This document shows, in pieces, positions 14,952 through 62,904 of a DNA stretch of 64,000 nt. Origin of the DNA: Dehalococcoidia bacterium (GTDB taxonomy: Bacteria > Chloroflexota > Dehalococcoidia > Lucifugimonadales > Lucifugimonadaceae); assembly GCA_012959765.1 (NCBI GenBank), contig DUCO01000046.1:62001-126000 (forward strand). The letters run 5' to 3'. How positions within the stretch are numbered: the stretch's first letter is position 1; each line of letters starts with the position of its first letter. The notes under the pieces were generated by a model. It saw only the letters and a program-made list of their open reading frames with translations, ran no database searches and was not told the DNA's origin. A program made the translations under genes and the position numbers.

Positions 14952-15567
14952 TCAGAGAATAGTGAAGAGTTTTTCGCCAAGCGTGTGCCCCAGATACGCG
15001 ATTACCGATGCCTGCGCAATTTTGCCTGCGAACGTACCCGCCAGAAACCTGCGGACATCGAGTCGACCCGCCCCGGCTATTAACCCGGCGTAGTCGAACA
15101 TCGGGTTGGGAGTGTCCGCTATAAGGAATGAGGCTGTACCAACGTTGTCGGTCGACCATGAGTACAGATTCGATATTGGCGCTGGCAGGTTGGGCTGCGA
15201 TTCGGCTACCCGTGCAGCCCACGAGTGGTCCCGCCGACCGAGCACGTAGCAAAACAGCCATGCCCGCTGTGATGCTGGCCGCAGCGGCGAGAACCAATCC
15301 AATCGGATTCAGTATCGCTGCTCCGGTGAAAACCAGAGGTAGGACAGGTACCGGGACAACGACAGTTGCGCTGCCGATGAATCCCAACAGAATGATCATT
15401 GGAATGCCCACCATTCCGATCACCGCAGGGTCGATCACCAAAAACTCTTGTATAGCTATTGGCATGACGCATGCGAGCAGTATCAGCGCCCCCGCGTCGA
15501 CCGTCGCATACCTCGAAGATTTCGTTTTTTCCTCAACCACTTTTTCACCTGTTATCAGGTTATTCAT
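14952..15567 (-). pseudogene. VTT/DedA-like membrane protein disrupted by a frameshift
   Basis: From a start near 15567 (MNNLITGEK) or 15630, the minus strand reads hydrophobic segments and GFIGSATVVVPVPVLPLVFTG, then ASITAGMAVLL. Thereafter this frame loses sense. In the neighbouring frame FCYVLGRRDHSW continues through ADTPNPMFDYAGLIAGAGR to LGHTLGEKLFTIL at 14952. Removing one base from the AAAA run at 15251-15254 joins them. The family (VTT/SNARE-associated, DedA-related) contains predicted membrane transport or lipid-scrambling proteins. The disruption is either a real one-base insertion or a homopolymer sequencing error. Confidence 0.7.
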
Positions 15568-27005: not shown

Positions 27006-27836
27006 ATGGTTAGCCAGAGTCAGTCCTACCAGAGCCCACGATCCTTCAAGAAAATCGCCGAAGATGCTGTTGAGCACGCTTTAGCCGGTCGCTGGGAATC
27101 GGCCGTTGAAGTGAACCTCGAAGGCCTGGAGATTGATGCGAATGACGGTAGCTGTTTGAATCGGCTGGCGAAGGCTTATTTGGAACTGAGTCGATACAAG
27201 GAAGCGCGCACGCTCCTCGACAAGGCCATTGGGATAGATCCTCTCAACAGAGTTGCGATCCGCCAGATAGACAGGCTTTCGAAGCTCGACAGTAGCGGTA
27301 TTGCTCGACGGACATCGGGCGGCACTGCGACCAACTCTGCACTATTCATTTCCGACCCCGCGGTGGCTACCGTTTCCGAACTGAAAAAAGTGGCAAACTC
27401 CGAAGTTCTTGCCGCTGTTTCTCCCGGCGACAAGTTCAAGCTCGTTATCGAGGATTCGATAGCCAGTGTGAATACTTCGAGCGGCGAGTACGTCTGAACG
27501 CTGGAAGTGCGAATTGCCACCCGGATTCGCAAGATGATCGATGGTGGCAACAAGTACGAAGTGCTCGCTGCAAAGCTAACCGATTCTGAAGTGATCGTCG
27601 TCGTGCGAGAGACTAAGCGATCTGCAACTCAGGCTCGTATCGCATCCTTCCCCTCCTACCTTCAGAAGAAGATAGGCGACTTCGATCTCGATGATCCGAT
27701 GGAGATCAACGACGAACTTCGAATGGAAGATGACATGGACGAGTTCGCGCCGGCACCTGTCGAGAACGAGTCGATGAAGTCGATCATGCGTGGAGAGTTC
27801 GGCGGCGCGGGCGAAGACTCAAGCATCAAGTTCTAA
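27006..27836 (+). CDS. TPR-domain protein with an in-frame TGA
   Basis: The frame from ATG 27006 is open for 163 codons, meets TGA at 27495-27497 and stays open in the same frame to 27836. Residues about 15-85 are two tetratricopeptide-like helices. After a linker a beta-rich domain runs straight through the TGA: ASVNTSSGEYV, then TLEVRIATRIRKMIDGGNKY. The sense on both sides shows one gene, about 276 residues. From memory of similar TPR proteins the position usually holds Gly, so a GGA to TGA change is one explanation. A 7-bp hairpin TGCGAAT/ATTCGCA with a 10-base loop begins 11 bases after the TGA. So readthrough (Sec or other) is possible, or a nonsense mutation or sequence error. Confidence 0.7.
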
Positions 27837-29243: not shown

Positions 29244-30065
29244 TCATTCAGACAGGATTTTTAGCAGTGCAGGCAATGCCTCGCCTGCGGACGAGCGCAA
29301 AGATACCGCACAAAGTGAGGTAAGTTTCGTTTCTGTGGGGTTGATTTCGATAATCGTCGCTCCGGCAGCTTCGGCGATCCACAACAGGCCGCTCGCAGGG
29401 CGAACAGTGGCGGAAGTGCCGATTGCGAGTACACAGTCGGCCTTGTCGATCTCAGCTCGTGCGGCAGTCATCACATCATCGGGAATTGGCTCTCCGAACA
29501 TCACGGTGTCGAACTTGACTAGCCCTTCGCACTTTTCGCAGGGGTCAGGAGCGAACAGCGGAACGAACTCGCCGAGCGATACGCGGTCGCCGCACTCGAT
29601 GCAACGAAGCTTTTGGCGATTGCCGTGAATCTCTTTCAGGTTCTTCAGCCCGGCCTTTTCATCGAGTCCGTCTATGTTCTGGGTTACTACCGATTGCAGC
29701 GAACCCTGTTCCTCTAACGCGGCAAGGGCATAGTGACCGGCGTGGGGTTTGGCGTTCGCAAGGGCGTCGCGTAGCTCAAGGATATGAGCGTCGATCTTCT
29801 CGTTTGTTCTGCGATTCCACCAACCAGTCGGGTCCTCTTTGAATTTCGAGTAGCCATCCATCGGCGGGTTGCCATACTTGGTCCACAGCCCGTCAGCGCC
29901 TCTGAAGGGTGGTATACCGCTTTCGACCGACATCCCGGCGCCGGTCATGCCTACTACGTACTCAGATTCTCGAATGATATCTGCGATTTCTTCCGCTTGA
30001 GATTCGAGTCCAGATGAGGATGACGATGAGCCTGATGCGGATGAGGTAGTTGGCGAATTAGTCAT
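29244..30065 (-). CDS. Sir2-family NAD-dependent protein deacylase
   Basis: A 273-residue sirtuin. A Ser-rich lead (first 20) precedes the NAD motif MTGAGMSVESGIPPFRG (40-56), TQNIDGL (128-134) and the catalytic EIHGN (His147). The zinc pairs are Cys155/158 and Cys176/179. GTSATVRPASGL closes the NAD fold. It removes acyl groups from lysines with NAD. It starts inside the last bases of recF on the same strand (8-bp overlap), so the two are co-transcribed. Confidence 0.93.
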   Translation of the reverse strand: MTNSPTTSSASGSSSSSSGLESQAEEIADIIRESEYVVGMTGAGMSVESGIPPFRGADGLWTKYGNPPMDGYSKFKEDPTGWWNRRTNEKIDAHILELRDALANAKPHAGHYALAALEEQGSLQSVVTQNIDGLDEKAGLKNLKEIHGNRQKLRCIECGDRVSLGEFVPLFAPDPCEKCEGLVKFDTVMFGEPIPDDVMTAARAEIDKADCVLAIGTSATVRPASGLLWIAEAAGATIIEINPTETKLTSLCAVSLRSSAGEALPALLKILSE

Positions 30066-31353
30066 TTGAACTGAGATTGGCGATAGCGTCCTGGGTGACT
30101 CGTCCGTTCATCACGGTGTAGATGTCGGCTGTCTTGAGGAACGGTTCGGGCACGATCCCCGGTTCTGTAGATGTGAGCAGAACCTGCTCGTGCTTTATGG
30201 CGGCTTCGAGAACAAGCTCGCGCCGCTTGGGGTCGAGTTCGGAAAGGATATCGTCGAGGGCAAGTACGGGAGTCCGGCCTGTCGATTGAGTGACAAACAC
30301 CGCTTCAGCCAGCTTCAGTGACAGTGCGATAGTTCGCGCCTGTCCACGTGATGCGAACTGCCCCGCCGACTGGTCGTTCAGCCGAATTTCCAGATCATCT
30401 CGATGCGGCCCGATTGCGGTTACTCCCTGCGCTATTTCACGCCTTCTGAGCGCGGGCAACGCCTGTTTCACCTCTTGCTCGATCATCTCGGCAGTCATCG
30501 ATCCAACGTCTGGCCGGTCGCTTGATGATGCCGTAATACGAGGGAGGTACCTGAGTTCGAGCTTGTCGCCGTCGGTCAATTCGCTGTGAGCAGGCACGGC
30601 GTGATCGTTTAGTCCATCGATCGAGCGTCTCCGTGCGTCGGTGACTCGTGCACCCTCGTACGCCAGCCGTTCGTCCCAGAAAAGCAGTTCGTTCTCTTCA
30701 GAAACGCCATCTCTGATACGCCGTAGTAGCTGGTTTCGCTGGGTTACGACCTGGCCGTATCGCTGGAGCGACTTCAGATAGGCAGGATTCGACTGTGAAA
30801 TCAGTATGTCCAGATACCTGCGCCTTCGACCCGGCGAGCCATACACAATTTCCAGGTCATCGGCCTCGAAGAACACGATGTTCAGGTTTCCAACGAAGTC
30901 GATTGCCGAGCGCTTGATGCCATTCACACGAAGCCCCTTGCGGAATCCTGGAGTTCCTTTAGGCGTACCTGCTGCAGTTACATCGACGTCGATCTGCGCC
31001 TGAATCGTCGTATCGCCGTCACGCCCAACACCAAGAATTTGCATGTGACCGCCGGTTTCGGCTAACGACCAGTTGACCAGTTCTCGTTCGTGGGAGGATC
31101 TTGGCGATTTCGCTATCGCCAGCATGTAGGCGGCTTCGAGCAAGTTGCTTTTGCCGTGACCGTTCTGGCCCTGAAACAGCGTTAGCCCGGGGCGGAGTTC
31201 TAGTTCGGTGTTTGTGTGGTTTCTAAAACCAGTTAGGGAAAGCCTCGATATGTAGATCGGAGTGCCTTTCGTGAGTTCTGGCTGACGTAAGTTCTGGTGG
31301 GCTGGCGTTGATCGGACCTGAAAATAGGTTTTAATCAGGCCCGGTGACGGCAA
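30058..31353 (-). CDS. recF: DNA replication and repair protein RecF
   Basis: A 431-residue SMC-like ATPase, longer than the usual 360-380 owing to an N-terminal extension from a TTG start at 31353. The true start may be further in, since the conserved part begins at about residue 32 (PIYISRLSLTGFRNH). Walker A GQNGHGKSN (62-70), the signature region SRGQARTIALSLKLAE and Walker B PVLALDDILSELD are clear. RecF loads RecA at gaps and helps restart replication. dnaN and gyrB, its common neighbours, are absent. It overlaps the Sir2 gene. Confidence 0.95.
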   Translation of the reverse strand: MPSPGLIKTYFQVRSTPAHQNLRQPELTKGTPIYISRLSLTGFRNHTNTELELRPGLTLFQGQNGHGKSNLLEAAYMLAIAKSPRSSHERELVNWSLAETGGHMQILGVGRDGDTTIQAQIDVDVTAAGTPKGTPGFRKGLRVNGIKRSAIDFVGNLNIVFFEADDLEIVYGSPGRRRRYLDILISQSNPAYLKSLQRYGQVVTQRNQLLRRIRDGVSEENELLFWDERLAYEGARVTDARRRSIDGLNDHAVPAHSELTDGDKLELRYLPRITASSSDRPDVGSMTAEMIEQEVKQALPALRRREIAQGVTAIGPHRDDLEIRLNDQSAGQFASRGQARTIALSLKLAEAVFVTQSTGRTPVLALDDILSELDPKRRELVLEAAIKHEQVLLTSTEPGIVPEPFLKTADIYTVMNGRVTQDAIANLSSND

Positions 31354-31432: not shown

Positions 31433-32522
31433 GTGATGATGCACAAGGATGTTGGAATCGGGTTAATCGCTTTGCTGATGGGGTATGTCCTATGGATTAC
31501 CACGGCGGGGACGACGGTGGCGCAGGGGGAAACCGTGGTGATAAATTCAGATTCGGCCAGAAACGCCACCGAAGAGAAGTCACTCGAAATCGTGACGCTA
31601 CTTGACTTCGATTCGATCCGTTCGATAGAGGATCCGCGCTTCGTGGATCCTGAAATCGCCGATGAGACCTATTATCCGGACGAACTCGTGCTTTGAGTCG
31701 AGATAGATGGCGACGCCCGAGCTTATTCGGTGCCGCTTCTGAGTCGACACGAAATAGTTAACGATGTGGTTGGCGGCAAACCTATAGCCGTCACCTGGTG
31801 ACCGCTTTGCTTTACTGGAATCGGGTATTCCAGAGAGATAAACGGTGAAGTTCACGAATTCGGGGTTTCAGGAAAGCTCATCATGAACGCCCTCGTCATG
31901 TACGACCGAGAGACCGAATCGCTATGGAGCCAGTTTCTCTCGCAGTCGGTCCGAGGCGAACTTATGGGCACGAAACTCGAAACTATTCCACTGACACTCA
32001 CAACATGGGATAAATGGAAGGAAACGCACCCGGAAACGGTAGCCCTGCGTAAGGGTAATCGTGGGGGCGATCCGTACATTGGCTACTACGGTGGGCGTTC
32101 GGCTGGTGTGATCGGCGAGTCGAACAAAGACGATCGGTTGCCGACCAAAGAGTTGGTGCTGGATCTCGGGTTCGATTCTGAACCTGTTGCGTTCCCGCAT
32201 TCTGAGTTGCGTTCGCAGCAACTAGTTCACACGTCACACGACGGGGCTGCGACTATTGTTTACTTCGACCCCGCTACCGGCACAGCGCTGGCATACGGGG
32301 CTGTTGTGGCCGACCAGGAACTTCAGCTTCAAGTTGATCGAACGTGATGGCTGTGAGTGGCTTCAGGACGATCAAACCGTCACATTGTGGGTGCCATTCA
32401 CCGGTCAGGCAGTTGACGGGAAATTATCAGGAAACGCTCTGGAACGTCTGCATGCGAACAATGTTTTCTGGTTCGCATGGAACGATTTTTACCCACAGAC
32501 ATCAATTTGGGGTTTAGGATAG
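31433..32522 (+). pseudogene. DUF3179 protein: candidate selenoprotein, or pseudogene
   Basis: From a GTG at 31433 the frame reads an N-terminal signal-like helix (IGLIALLMGYVLWI), then FDSIRSIEDPRFVDPEIAD, the DUF3179 start. It meets TGA at 31694-31696 (VL-TGA-VEIDGDARAY, where the family has Gly) and again at 31799-31801 (AVTW-TGA-PLC, where the family has the first Cys of CPLC). It then continues open as FGVSGKLIMNALVMYDRETE to 32347. A one-base insertion near 32320 moves the tail (FKLIERDGCEWLQDD to WGLG) to another frame. The second TGA sits where a redox CxxC Cys belongs, followed by a hairpin at 31815-31833, so selenocysteine (UPLC) is plausible. The first TGA and the frameshift argue for decay or sequence error. 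The domain's function is unknown. Confidence 0.6.
31815..31833 (+). promoter_or_regulatory. SECIS-like hairpin in the DUF3179 gene
   Basis: CTGGAAT (31815-31821) pairs perfectly with ATTCCAG (31827-31833); the five-base loop is CGGGT. The loop opens 21 bases after the TGA at 31799-31801 and has G as its second base. That fits the bacterial SECIS rule as I know it (loop 3-14 bases, G in the first two positions, about 16-37 bases after the UGA). Confidence 0.55.
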
Positions 32523-32591
32523 GCGTTCTTTCCCTAAGTGTGCGTCGCTGTGCCCTCTGCACTGGAGGTGCGGCGGGCTGTATGCACACAA

Positions 32592-33125
32592 ATGATCTGG
32601 TGGTTTGACTTGGATCTGAAGTCACTGATTCGTGATGTACCCGACTACCCCTCAGAAGGCATCCTGTTCCGTGATTTAACGCCTCTCATGGCGAATCCCG
32701 GGGCGATGCAGCGCGTTACAGAAGTGCTATCAAACCACCTGAAATCGCTTCAGATCGAAGCCATTGCCGCGATAGATTCTCGCGGATTCATTTTCGGGGC
32801 ACCAGTTGCCGCAGTACTCGATATCCCGTTTGTTCCGATTCGAAAAGCAGGTAAGCTTCCGCCTCCGATTGTAGGAACGGATTACGCTCTCGAATATGGC
32901 ACGGCTCGCCTTGAAGTGAGTACAAATTCGGTGACCGATGGACAAAGGGTGGCTGTGGTGGATGATTTGCTTGCAACTGGTGGATCGGCGGGGGCTGGGG
33001 TGAAGCTGATCACATCTCTGGGGGCGGAAGTCATTTCGGCTACATTTCTGGTTGAATTGGAATTTTTAAAAGGCAGACATGTTCTGCCCAGCGGACTCGA
33101 CGTATTCAGTATGGTGAAGTACTAG
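32592..33125 (+). CDS. apt: Adenine phosphoribosyltransferase
   Basis: A type I PRTase, about 177 residues from the ATG at 32592. An earlier in-frame start at 32538 adds 18 residues without family match. The PRPP loop VAVVDDLLATGGSAGAG (about 119-135) and IEAIAAIDSRGFIFGAPVA are the APT signatures, and FVPIRKAGKLP is the adenine-binding segment. It salvages adenine to AMP. It begins about 70 bp after the DUF3179 gene and is followed 2 bp later by the HAD gene. Confidence 0.93.
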   Translation: MIWWFDLDLKSLIRDVPDYPSEGILFRDLTPLMANPGAMQRVTEVLSNHLKSLQIEAIAAIDSRGFIFGAPVAAVLDIPFVPIRKAGKLPPPIVGTDYALEYGTARLEVSTNSVTDGQRVAVVDDLLATGGSAGAGVKLITSLGAEVISATFLVELEFLKGRHVLPSGLDVFSMVKY

Positions 33126-35603: not shown

Positions 35604-36656
35604 TTACTGCCAGACGGTTACTATACCCGGATCGCCATCGAACACTTTGCCCACAACAGAACTGTAAAGTGTTTGGTTAGCAACTAAACTATTTACAAGA
35701 GCTTCAGAACGCTCTTCCGGAATTGAAATCAGCATGCCGCCGGACGTCTGCGCATCGGCAAGAATCGTGAACTCGATATCGCCAAGGCCGTCCTCAAAGT
35801 TCACAACATCTCGAATCGCCTCGATGTTGCGAGCTGTACCGCCAGAAACAGCGCCCGCCGTGGCGAGTTCCAGTGCTCCAGGAAGAAGCGGAATCTTCGA
35901 CCAGTTCAGCGCAGCCGAAGTGCCGCTGGCCTTCATCATCTGAGAAAGGTGCCCGAGTAGCCCAAATCCAGTTACATCGGTAGCAGCGTTCACGCCAACC
36001 TCGAGCATGGCATCGGCTGCGCCCTTATTAAGCGTCGCCATCGATTTCACAGCAGCCTGCACGGATTCGTCAGGTGCAGTACCGGCCTTCGCAGCAGTTG
36101 TAATAACGCCAGAACCGATCGCCTTCGTAAGAATCAACACATCACCGGGCTTAGCCGAAGCGTTCGTAATCTGTTCGCCGGGAACCACAACACCTGTAAC
36201 TGCGAGCCCGTACTTGGGCTCCTTGTCGTCGACGGTGTGCCCGCCAATGATCAGGATCCCGGCCTCTTCAGCTTTGACCTGTCCGCCCTCGAGAATCTTC
36301 GCAATCACATCAGGTCCAAGATCCCGCGGGAACGCAGCAATATTCAGTGCCGTAATCGGCGTTCCGCCAACCGCATAAACATCGCTCAAGGCATTCGCAG
36401 CAGCGATCTGACCGTAGTCGAACGGGTCGTCAACGATTGGCGCAAAGAAGTCATTTGTGAGTACGAGAGCGACGCGATCGTTTATCCGGTAGATGGCAGC
36501 GTCATCTCCGGTCTCGAGTCCAACCAGCACATTTGGATCAGTGATGGTCGGTGTTGGCAGCTTGCCCAAGACCTGGGCAAGTTCGCTCTGGCTGAGCTTC
36601 CCAGCTCAACCGGCGCAGGTCGCCAGTTCGGTTAGTCGTACAGGTTTGTCACTCAT
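35604..36656 (-). CDS. selD: Selenide, water dikinase with selenocysteine (UGA codon)
   Basis: From the ATG at 36656, 350 codons including one internal TGA at 36606-36608 (codon 17). The N-terminus reads RLTELATCAGUAGK, matching SelD, where the catalytic residue is Cys17 in E. coli and Sec in many species, with the essential Lys three residues on (Lys20). Later: ETGDDAAIY, TNDFFAPIVDDPFDYG, GGHTVDDKEPKYGLAVTG, TDVTGFGLLGHL and DAQTSGGML. It makes selenophosphate from selenide and ATP. A standard start would be TTG 36569, which would delete the catalytic region. A SECIS-like hairpin follows the TGA. No selA, selB or tRNA-Sec gene is seen in this window. Confidence 0.9.
36561..36581 (-). promoter_or_regulatory. 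SECIS-like hairpin of selD
   Basis: On the minus strand CTTGCCCA (36581 down to 36574) pairs perfectly with TGGGCAAG (36568 down to 36561) over loop GGTCT (36573-36569). The loop opens 33 bases after the TGA and starts with G, as expected for a bacterial SECIS. Confidence 0.7.
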
Positions 36657-61567: not shown

Positions 61568-62904
61568 TTAGAGTCGGTCCCATCGGATTCACCGGATTCG
61601 CCAGATTTAGCCGAATCGCCAGGCGATTGCGGAATCGTTTTCATCGACCGTATAGTCGGGTGTAACAGCACCACTCCTGCCAGCATGAATATGGCCGATC
61701 CTGTCGCAAGGGCGATTCGTAGTCCAACCAGTTCGGCCACGATACCGGCGATCGATGCTCCGATCAACATCCCAGTCTTTTCGGAAACTTTCAGCGCGCT
61801 GGCGACTCTTCCTCGAAGATGCTCGGGCGTAACTGCCTGTTGAACGCTTGCCTCGTTGATATCGTGCATTATCCAAAAGCCATCGCCGAATACTTGCGGT
61901 ATCACGAAAAACACCATCGCCAACCAGATTTCAGTCGGCGCCAGCGGCATGAAGAAGCTGACGCTGCCGTAAATAAACAACCCCAGTGCCATAGTTGGCC
62001 CGACGCCTAATTTGCGGGTTACTCGGGTGGTGTATATGGCACCAACAAACGAACTGGCACCGCCGATTCCGATGATGATTCCAAACGGCCCCGGCTGAAT
62101 ACCGATCTCACCAATCGCAAATAGCGCGATCATTCCACCAAGAATTCCGCCTGATACCGACACGATGACGCTGCTGATGGCTATGAGAAGCAGGATTTGG
62201 TTCCTTGCGATAAATCGATAACCCTCCATAATTTCGCTGCGAATATTGCCTTTTTGGTCGGGTTTTTCCGGTTCAGGTTCACGTTGGCGAATCAGCAGAA
62301 TCAGTATCCCGGATATGGCGAAAGTGACTGCCTAGACAATGCTTGCGCTTATTGCCGACGCCAACTGTGCGATGAATCCACCAACGTTGAATCCGATCTG
62401 CTCAGCAACTGAATCGGCAGCTCCCATCTTAGCGTTGGCTTCGAGCAGTCGATCGCGCCCGACAAGGCTTGGCATGTACGCTCGGTTCGCTACCTCATTG
62501 AAAATTCCCAGCGAGCCGTTGATGAATGCCACTACGTAGAGGTGTTCGATGTGAAGTTCGAATACAAAATGCGCTACTGCAAGGCTGGCGATAGAAAGCG
62601 ATTGCAGCAGATCGGTGGTTGCAAGCACTAATCGACGTTTCGTGCGGTCGATCCACGGTCCGGCCATCAGCCCGAACGCCAGACCGGATGCAGAACTTGC
62701 GCCTCCGATGATCGCCATCTGATAGGGACGAGCGTCGAGAACCAGGATGGCAATAAGCGGAAGCACCATCATCATCCGACCAAGATTTGAAGTCGACTGG
62801 GCTGCCCAAAGTTTTAGAAAATCGGGGTTGCGCCAGAGGCTATCTCGACTCTGTGATGGCGTGGTCTCGGGCGAATCCGTTGAGGGTATGCCACATGATG
62901 ACAT
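61564..62904 (-). pseudogene. MFS transporter interrupted by an amber codon
   Basis: The minus strand reads a clear MFS start (SLWRNPDFLKLWAAQSTSNL, ILVLDARPYQMAIIGGASSASG) from 62904 to SASIV, then TAG at 62332-62334. The same frame continues AVTFAISGILILLIRQRE and on through MALGLFIYGSVSFFMPL to 61564. Only one codon breaks it, likely CAG to TAG. A natural stop is unlikely, since the sequence on both sides is continuous membrane protein. Substrate unknown. Confidence 0.82.

Follow-up and report, generated by a model that had tools for sequence, protein, structure and literature searches.

A predicted selenocysteine codon in a probably inactivated DUF3179 gene of SAR202 Chloroflexota

SAR202 bacteria abound in the deep ocean. 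In the window, by which we mean the whole 64,000-nucleotide stretch of DNA that was analysed, a gene for a DUF3179 protein carries an in-frame TGA in place of a cysteine codon. Does this TGA specify selenocysteine (Sec), and is the gene that carries it still alive?

The DUF3179 gene of the window

With the TGA read through, the window gene matches PF11376 (DUF3179) in Pfam at 31433-32522 (E 4.3e-70). Its residues 60-307 score 236.9 bits against a curated cut-off of 27, which places it in the family, and the frame that encodes the C terminus gives a separate PF11376 match of 35 bits. The features of the locus are as follows.

30058..31353, minus strand: recF-like neighbour, a syntenic flank (order conserved in congeners)
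31439..32522, plus strand: DUF3179 gene of the UPLC orthogroup, ATG at 31439, with an extra TGA and a frame change (PF11376 on two frames, tblastn)
31694..31696, plus strand: extra in-frame TGA, Gly in seven intact relatives; a nonsense change or sequence error (orthologue alignment)
31799..31801, plus strand: predicted Sec codon TGA at the first position of UPLC (TGA in 7/7 aligned intact orthologues and 51/52 named loci)
31815..31833, plus strand: putative bacterial SECIS hairpin, 7-bp stem, loop CGGGT (covariation on 49 sequences; unformed in 16 Cys homologues)
32316..32335, plus strand: reading-frame change relative to intact orthologues (tblastn pieces overlapping in two frames)
32538..33125, plus strand: phosphoribosyltransferase (apt-like) neighbour, a syntenic flank (order conserved in congeners)
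35604..36656, minus strand: selD, own Sec codon at 36606-36608, start set at the nearest upstream Met

Three elements predicted from the window alone were confirmed. First, the TGA at 31799-31801 stands in the context AVTW-TGA-PLC, where it replaces the first Cys of CPLC. Second, after 13 intervening bases, CTGGAAT-CGGGT-ATTCCAG forms a perfect 7-bp stem with a G at loop position 2. Third, selD, with an in-frame TGA of its own, lies about 3 kb downstream. Synonymous codons were resampled with the amino acids fixed, at the codon frequencies of 12 genes of the window; all seven standard pairs reappeared in 1,515 of 200,000 draws, and seven Watson-Crick pairs in 418 of 200,000. Taken singly, the window hairpin is suggestive of Sec; the comparative data are decisive.

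The original prediction also held that the protein continues normally after the TGA. This is true for about 170 codons; the last ~45 domain positions are in another frame, the change falling within 32316-32335. Upstream of the Sec codon, the second in-frame TGA (31694-31696) occupies a site that is a Gly codon in all seven intact orthologues compared. With these two lesions, the window copy has no single open frame even when the Sec codon is excepted. Identity to the intact orthologues (n=7, tblastn) is 60-82% in the first frame and 52-76% in the second.

The genome encodes the Sec machinery: selB on contig C36, selA on C40, tRNA-Sec on C25, and selD in the window, all over cut-off. ARAGORN confirmed the tRNA-Sec with anticodon TCA (UCA), a weaker hit being a tRNA-Ser. 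Among 40 genomes, selA and selB exceed the cut-off in 37 and selD in 35, as does tRNA-Sec in 38, with a model that also scores tRNA-Ser.

The TGA and its hairpin across relatives

Finding TGA at this site in homologues, and the hairpin preserved in relatives, had been proposed as a check, and both were found. We scanned named genomes with the orthologue of Ca. Lucifugimonas marina JH1073, a SAR202 isolate in culture, as query and obtained 52 loci, all titled as Chloroflexota and several from the same genomes as our numbered set. TGA occupies the Cys site in 51 of them, JH1073 included (48 by script from the tblastn frame and range; L127, L137, and L168 by eye). The own match of L127 reads ULLC, and L168, L169, and L171 have other damage or are truncated. 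The 52nd locus, L166, has an Arg codon instead of TGA in a gene wrecked by other stops. No Cys orthologue was found among these 52 loci of the UPLC orthogroup. In two degraded orthologues, L103 (contig C70 of G010) and L166, an Arg codon has taken the place of the Sec codon.

We compared the hairpin across 49 sequences, with the window included, L171 left out, and the second DUF3179 copy of L127 standing in for that locus. Here, 97.7% of 308 cells are paired, and five of the seven pairs have changed on both sides in a compensatory manner (32 such cells). The covariation score is 0.346, against 0.078 ± 0.016 for shuffled alignments and at most 0.072 when the pairing is slid. As judged from this conservation, the TGA of the UPLC orthogroup is a selenocysteine codon at the family level.

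Of 40 genomes, the window's own among them, 31 have DUF3179. Several paralogues per genome are frequent, and many are full length with exactly one in-frame TGA. A motif search of 40 stretches around such matches yielded 30 distinct TGA forms: 13 with 7/7 stem pairs, seven with 6/7, six with 6/6 in the UPIC register, and four (L027, L057, L063, and L069) with fewer in both registers. Cys-type DUF3179 (CPLC) proteins share the domain and the two-cysteine motif with the window gene but have TGC or TGT for TGA, and all 16 Cys forms examined have at most four stem pairs in either register. Motif searches demand the motif, so that a TGA elsewhere in a gene escapes them; TGAs at other sites do occur, in copies with certain or possible damage (C36, C27, the window, and L068). 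Nine more TGA forms lie beyond that search, reading UTLC in L058, L059, L062, and L078 and UILC/UIKC in L064 and L072-L075. Their TGA is at the same site, and each has, by eye, a stem in a slightly different register. TGA forms of SAR202 Chloroflexota comprise four motif types (UPLC, UPIC, UTLC, and UILC/UIKC). In a tree of 31 proteins, which omits the UILC/UIKC type, a branch separates each of the UPLC, UPIC, UTLC, CPLC, and SPVT forms from the rest. We noted by eye a 6-bp GGGATC-type stem downstream of the TGA in L064 and L072-L075, and in L072-L075 the UILC/UIKC domain is the first of two matched domains in a frame of ~500 aa.

A draw of 100 other genomes from the phylum, including a few of the same class, contained DUF3179 in 22. 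TGA-bearing matches were found in G049, G066, G090, G099, and G132, and a broken one in G136. TGA forms are therefore concentrated in this order yet not confined to it.

Inactivation or sequence error

We examined the same site in 17 congeners, where the flanking genes, which we take to be recF and apt, stand in the same order. An intact DUF3179 gene is present in six (G004, G009, G011, G012, G013, and G017), a broken one in four (G001, G010, G015, and G007), and C-terminal scraps only in two (G006 and G018). The gene was not found at this site in the other five (G002, G005, G008, G014, and G016). In G007, the second Cys codon is changed and the gene is cut by the contig end. The recF-apt gap measures 1,327-1,430 bases in five measurable intact loci, versus 126-275 in five without the gene. 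The losses may be partly common by descent.

Until recently, purifying selection acted on the window copy. Its pN/pS is 0.13-0.21 against six congeners and 0.10-0.26 among the 15 pairs of those six, a coarse measure because dS is saturated between most species. In this genome, the CxxC/UxxC-type DUF3179 genes found, the window copy included, number three (C36, C27, and C46), all interrupted, whereas the SPVT-type gene on C15 is whole. Together with the frequent decay or absence of the gene in the genus, this pattern favours decay.

We suggest, at a probability of about 0.6, that DUF3179 is a conserved SAR202 selenoprotein, decoded with Sec where the gene is intact, and that the window copy was recently inactivated. 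The genus of Ca. Lucifugimonas would keep a DUF3179 selenoprotein, probably membrane-anchored, given a predicted N-terminal helix. Where the gene is intact, the hairpin 13 nt downstream of the UGA would recruit SelB and tRNA-Sec to read that codon as Sec, as its conservation implies. The window copy would have acquired its second stop and frame change after long purifying selection, and is for that reason most likely a recent loss, in line with the decay or loss that this locus often shows in related species. As it stands in the assembly, the copy is most likely either a young pseudogene or a carrier of assembly errors. Intact TGC or TGT codons and a missing hairpin in close relatives, or several additional nonsense changes in the gene of other strains, had been named as signs of a pseudogene. 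The extra nonsense codon, the frame change, and the broken or missing gene of several congeners point that way; the intact relatives, however, carry TGA and the hairpin at the Cys site, not TGC or TGT.

The most serious competing explanation is that the cell holds an intact, working selenoprotein gene and that both lesions, the second stop and the frameshift, are base errors in the metagenome assembly. The unraised pN/pS fits it, as do the division of the genome into 49 contigs at 92% completeness and a stretch of N adjoining the C36 paralogue. Three other well-conserved window genes have single breaks (14955-15489, 27006-27833, and 61597-62889), one likewise a Gly-to-TGA change (27495-27497), so the breaks in the DUF3179 gene may be errors too. 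In a quality control, a script flagged broken genes by comparing the open frames of one genome with another. Against the window, it flagged six of 47 open frames of G013 (two being the DUF3179 gene, one a start-region difference, and three other genes) and four of 30 of G012 (two being the DUF3179 gene, and one the same as in the G013 run), versus none of 37 for G013 against G012. The reverse comparison also raised raw flags (3/49 for the window against G013 and 2/29 against G012), so the control is imperfect. Nevertheless, sequence error would have to place two breaks within one 1.1-kb gene and to strike all three CxxC/UxxC-type DUF3179 genes, as against three of the 45 other window genes compared with G013. 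The chance of that excess is ~0.0012 (from 6/47), a figure formulated post hoc. In 11 of 17 congeners, moreover, the gene has decayed or was not found, and the PacBio-closed isolate likewise has a UPIC paralogue with an extra TGA. On balance, we regard sequence error as plausible but somewhat improbable.

The three other interrupted window genes differ in kind. The conserved gene at 27006-27833 (TPR-like by eye) is intact apart from its TGA, a site without a stop in G012 and G013 and Gly in G012. The minus-strand gene at 61597-62889 (MFS-like by eye) is 66% identical to its G013 counterpart and has one in-frame stop, Gln in the relative. At 14955-15489 (minus strand), a small membrane-protein-like gene is split by a frame change near 15252.

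Could both TGAs (31694 and 31799) be read, as Sec or as Gly/Trp, in a doubly recoded gene? Paralogues repeatedly have additional in-frame TGAs, at a Gly site in the UPIC gene of JH1073, at a Trp site in C27, and inside the domain of C36, at a site read as Trp. These TGAs, however, fall at differing residues, TGA is the terminal stop in three of the seven intact orthologues, and the frame change would be left unexplained. The seven intact orthologues have no second conserved TGA. We consider double recoding very unlikely, and we rejected a changed genetic code or a second recoded TGA on the Gly found at the first site in relatives. Among the paralogues concerned, the UPIC-type gene L068 (G013, that is JH1073; C1:2387562-2388431) has its extra TGA eight codons before the Sec codon, and the remainder of the gene is open. 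L009 (C27) and L008 (C36), both of the window's own genome (G000), have TGA at a presumed Trp position in the C-terminal domain, and C27 also has a frame change.

Least credible of all is a chance nonsense mutation at the Cys codon of a Cys-type gene, a plain pseudogene without Sec, which would suit the other damage in this gene but is refuted at the family level by TGA in 51/52 loci and a covarying hairpin in dozens of orthologues, and faces a full Sec machinery and 52 loci with no Cys orthologue.

A known selenoprotein family and its possible fold

The Sec form of DUF3179 had been proposed as a new family. Sec at the Cys site is well supported across relatives, but the family is already on record: selenoprotein tables in two reviews (PMC9312934, 2022; PMC13188914, 2026) list DUF3179/PF11376 with the motif UxxC/T, each citing Zhang & Gladyshev 2007. 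Novelty at the family level therefore fails, and the window gene represents a Sec codon in a known selenoprotein family, in a probably inactivated copy. By its title, the 2007 study is said to concern a symbiont of the worm Olavius algarvensis. Like the tabulated selenoprotein, the window gene belongs to this Pfam family and has Sec at the first Cys of UxxC; it differs in coming from SAR202 Chloroflexota, with four motif types and an interrupted copy in the window. PMC9230427 is also among the full-text matches for DUF3179, and the word is absent from the marine survey PMC2398784. The main text of the paper on the first cultured SAR202 strains has no word starting with "selen", and our literature search for SAR202 with selenocysteine or selenium returned papers with a single mention of the selenium word each. 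The importance of the locus lies mainly in the SAR202 expansion of DUF3179 Sec forms and in a lead on their fold. Because a cultured isolate whose genome is closed has an intact orthologue, Sec incorporation and the role of DUF3179 are directly testable.

Judging from structure models, DUF3179 would consist of two Rieske-like domains that lack the cluster ligands, the first bearing Sec in a beta-turn, a reading to which the uniformity of the VIA rows would point. The U-P-L-C motif would sit in that turn and, from its chemistry and fold, is probably a selenol/thiol redox pair outside the membrane. We tentatively propose an exported protein with a double Rieske fold, missing Fe-S ligands, and a Sec-x-x-Cys redox turn, whose Sec paralogues multiplied in SAR202 and are being lost species by species, though we would not bet on this composite as a whole. 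If true, this double Rieske-fold selenoenzyme could be tested directly in cultured Ca. Lucifugimonas marina.

Rieske [2Fe-2S] clusters are held by two Cys and two His (CxH and CxxH). Among 56 N-domain sequences, 12 columns are invariant, two of them Cys (73 and 76, with Sec read as Cys) and none His, and no conserved CxH/CxxH pairs were found, so that DUF3179 lacks the ligands of a Rieske [2Fe-2S] protein. DUF3179 differs in this from Rieske-fold proteins such as NirD, Rieske ferredoxins, and the Rieske subunits of bc1 and arsenite oxidase, and also in its two tandem domains, its Sec in a hairpin turn, and its lack of sequence-profile similarity to them. Profile-profile comparison of the N-domain with 16 SAR202 Rieske domains gave a probability of 0.5%. 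Foldseek against the PDB returned no E below 0.001 for either model, and its lists also include unrelated beta proteins. A sequence search for a solved homologue (query P0001) gave no match up to E 1, and NCBIfam gave no family for three Sec forms and one match far under its cut-off for a Cys form. The literature searched held no publication joining the Rieske fold with selenocysteine, nor a description of DUF3179 as a double Rieske-like fold with a Sec turn; we came across no structural clue to DUF3179 other than this fold lead. Sec at a Rieske ligand position was considered and dropped, as the aligned ranges put Sec some ten residues ahead of the first ligand loop, on ligand residue numbers that we assumed. 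Rieske domains proper are greatly expanded in three genomes of the same order (G027, G030, and G031), with 59, 55, and 37 matches, respectively.
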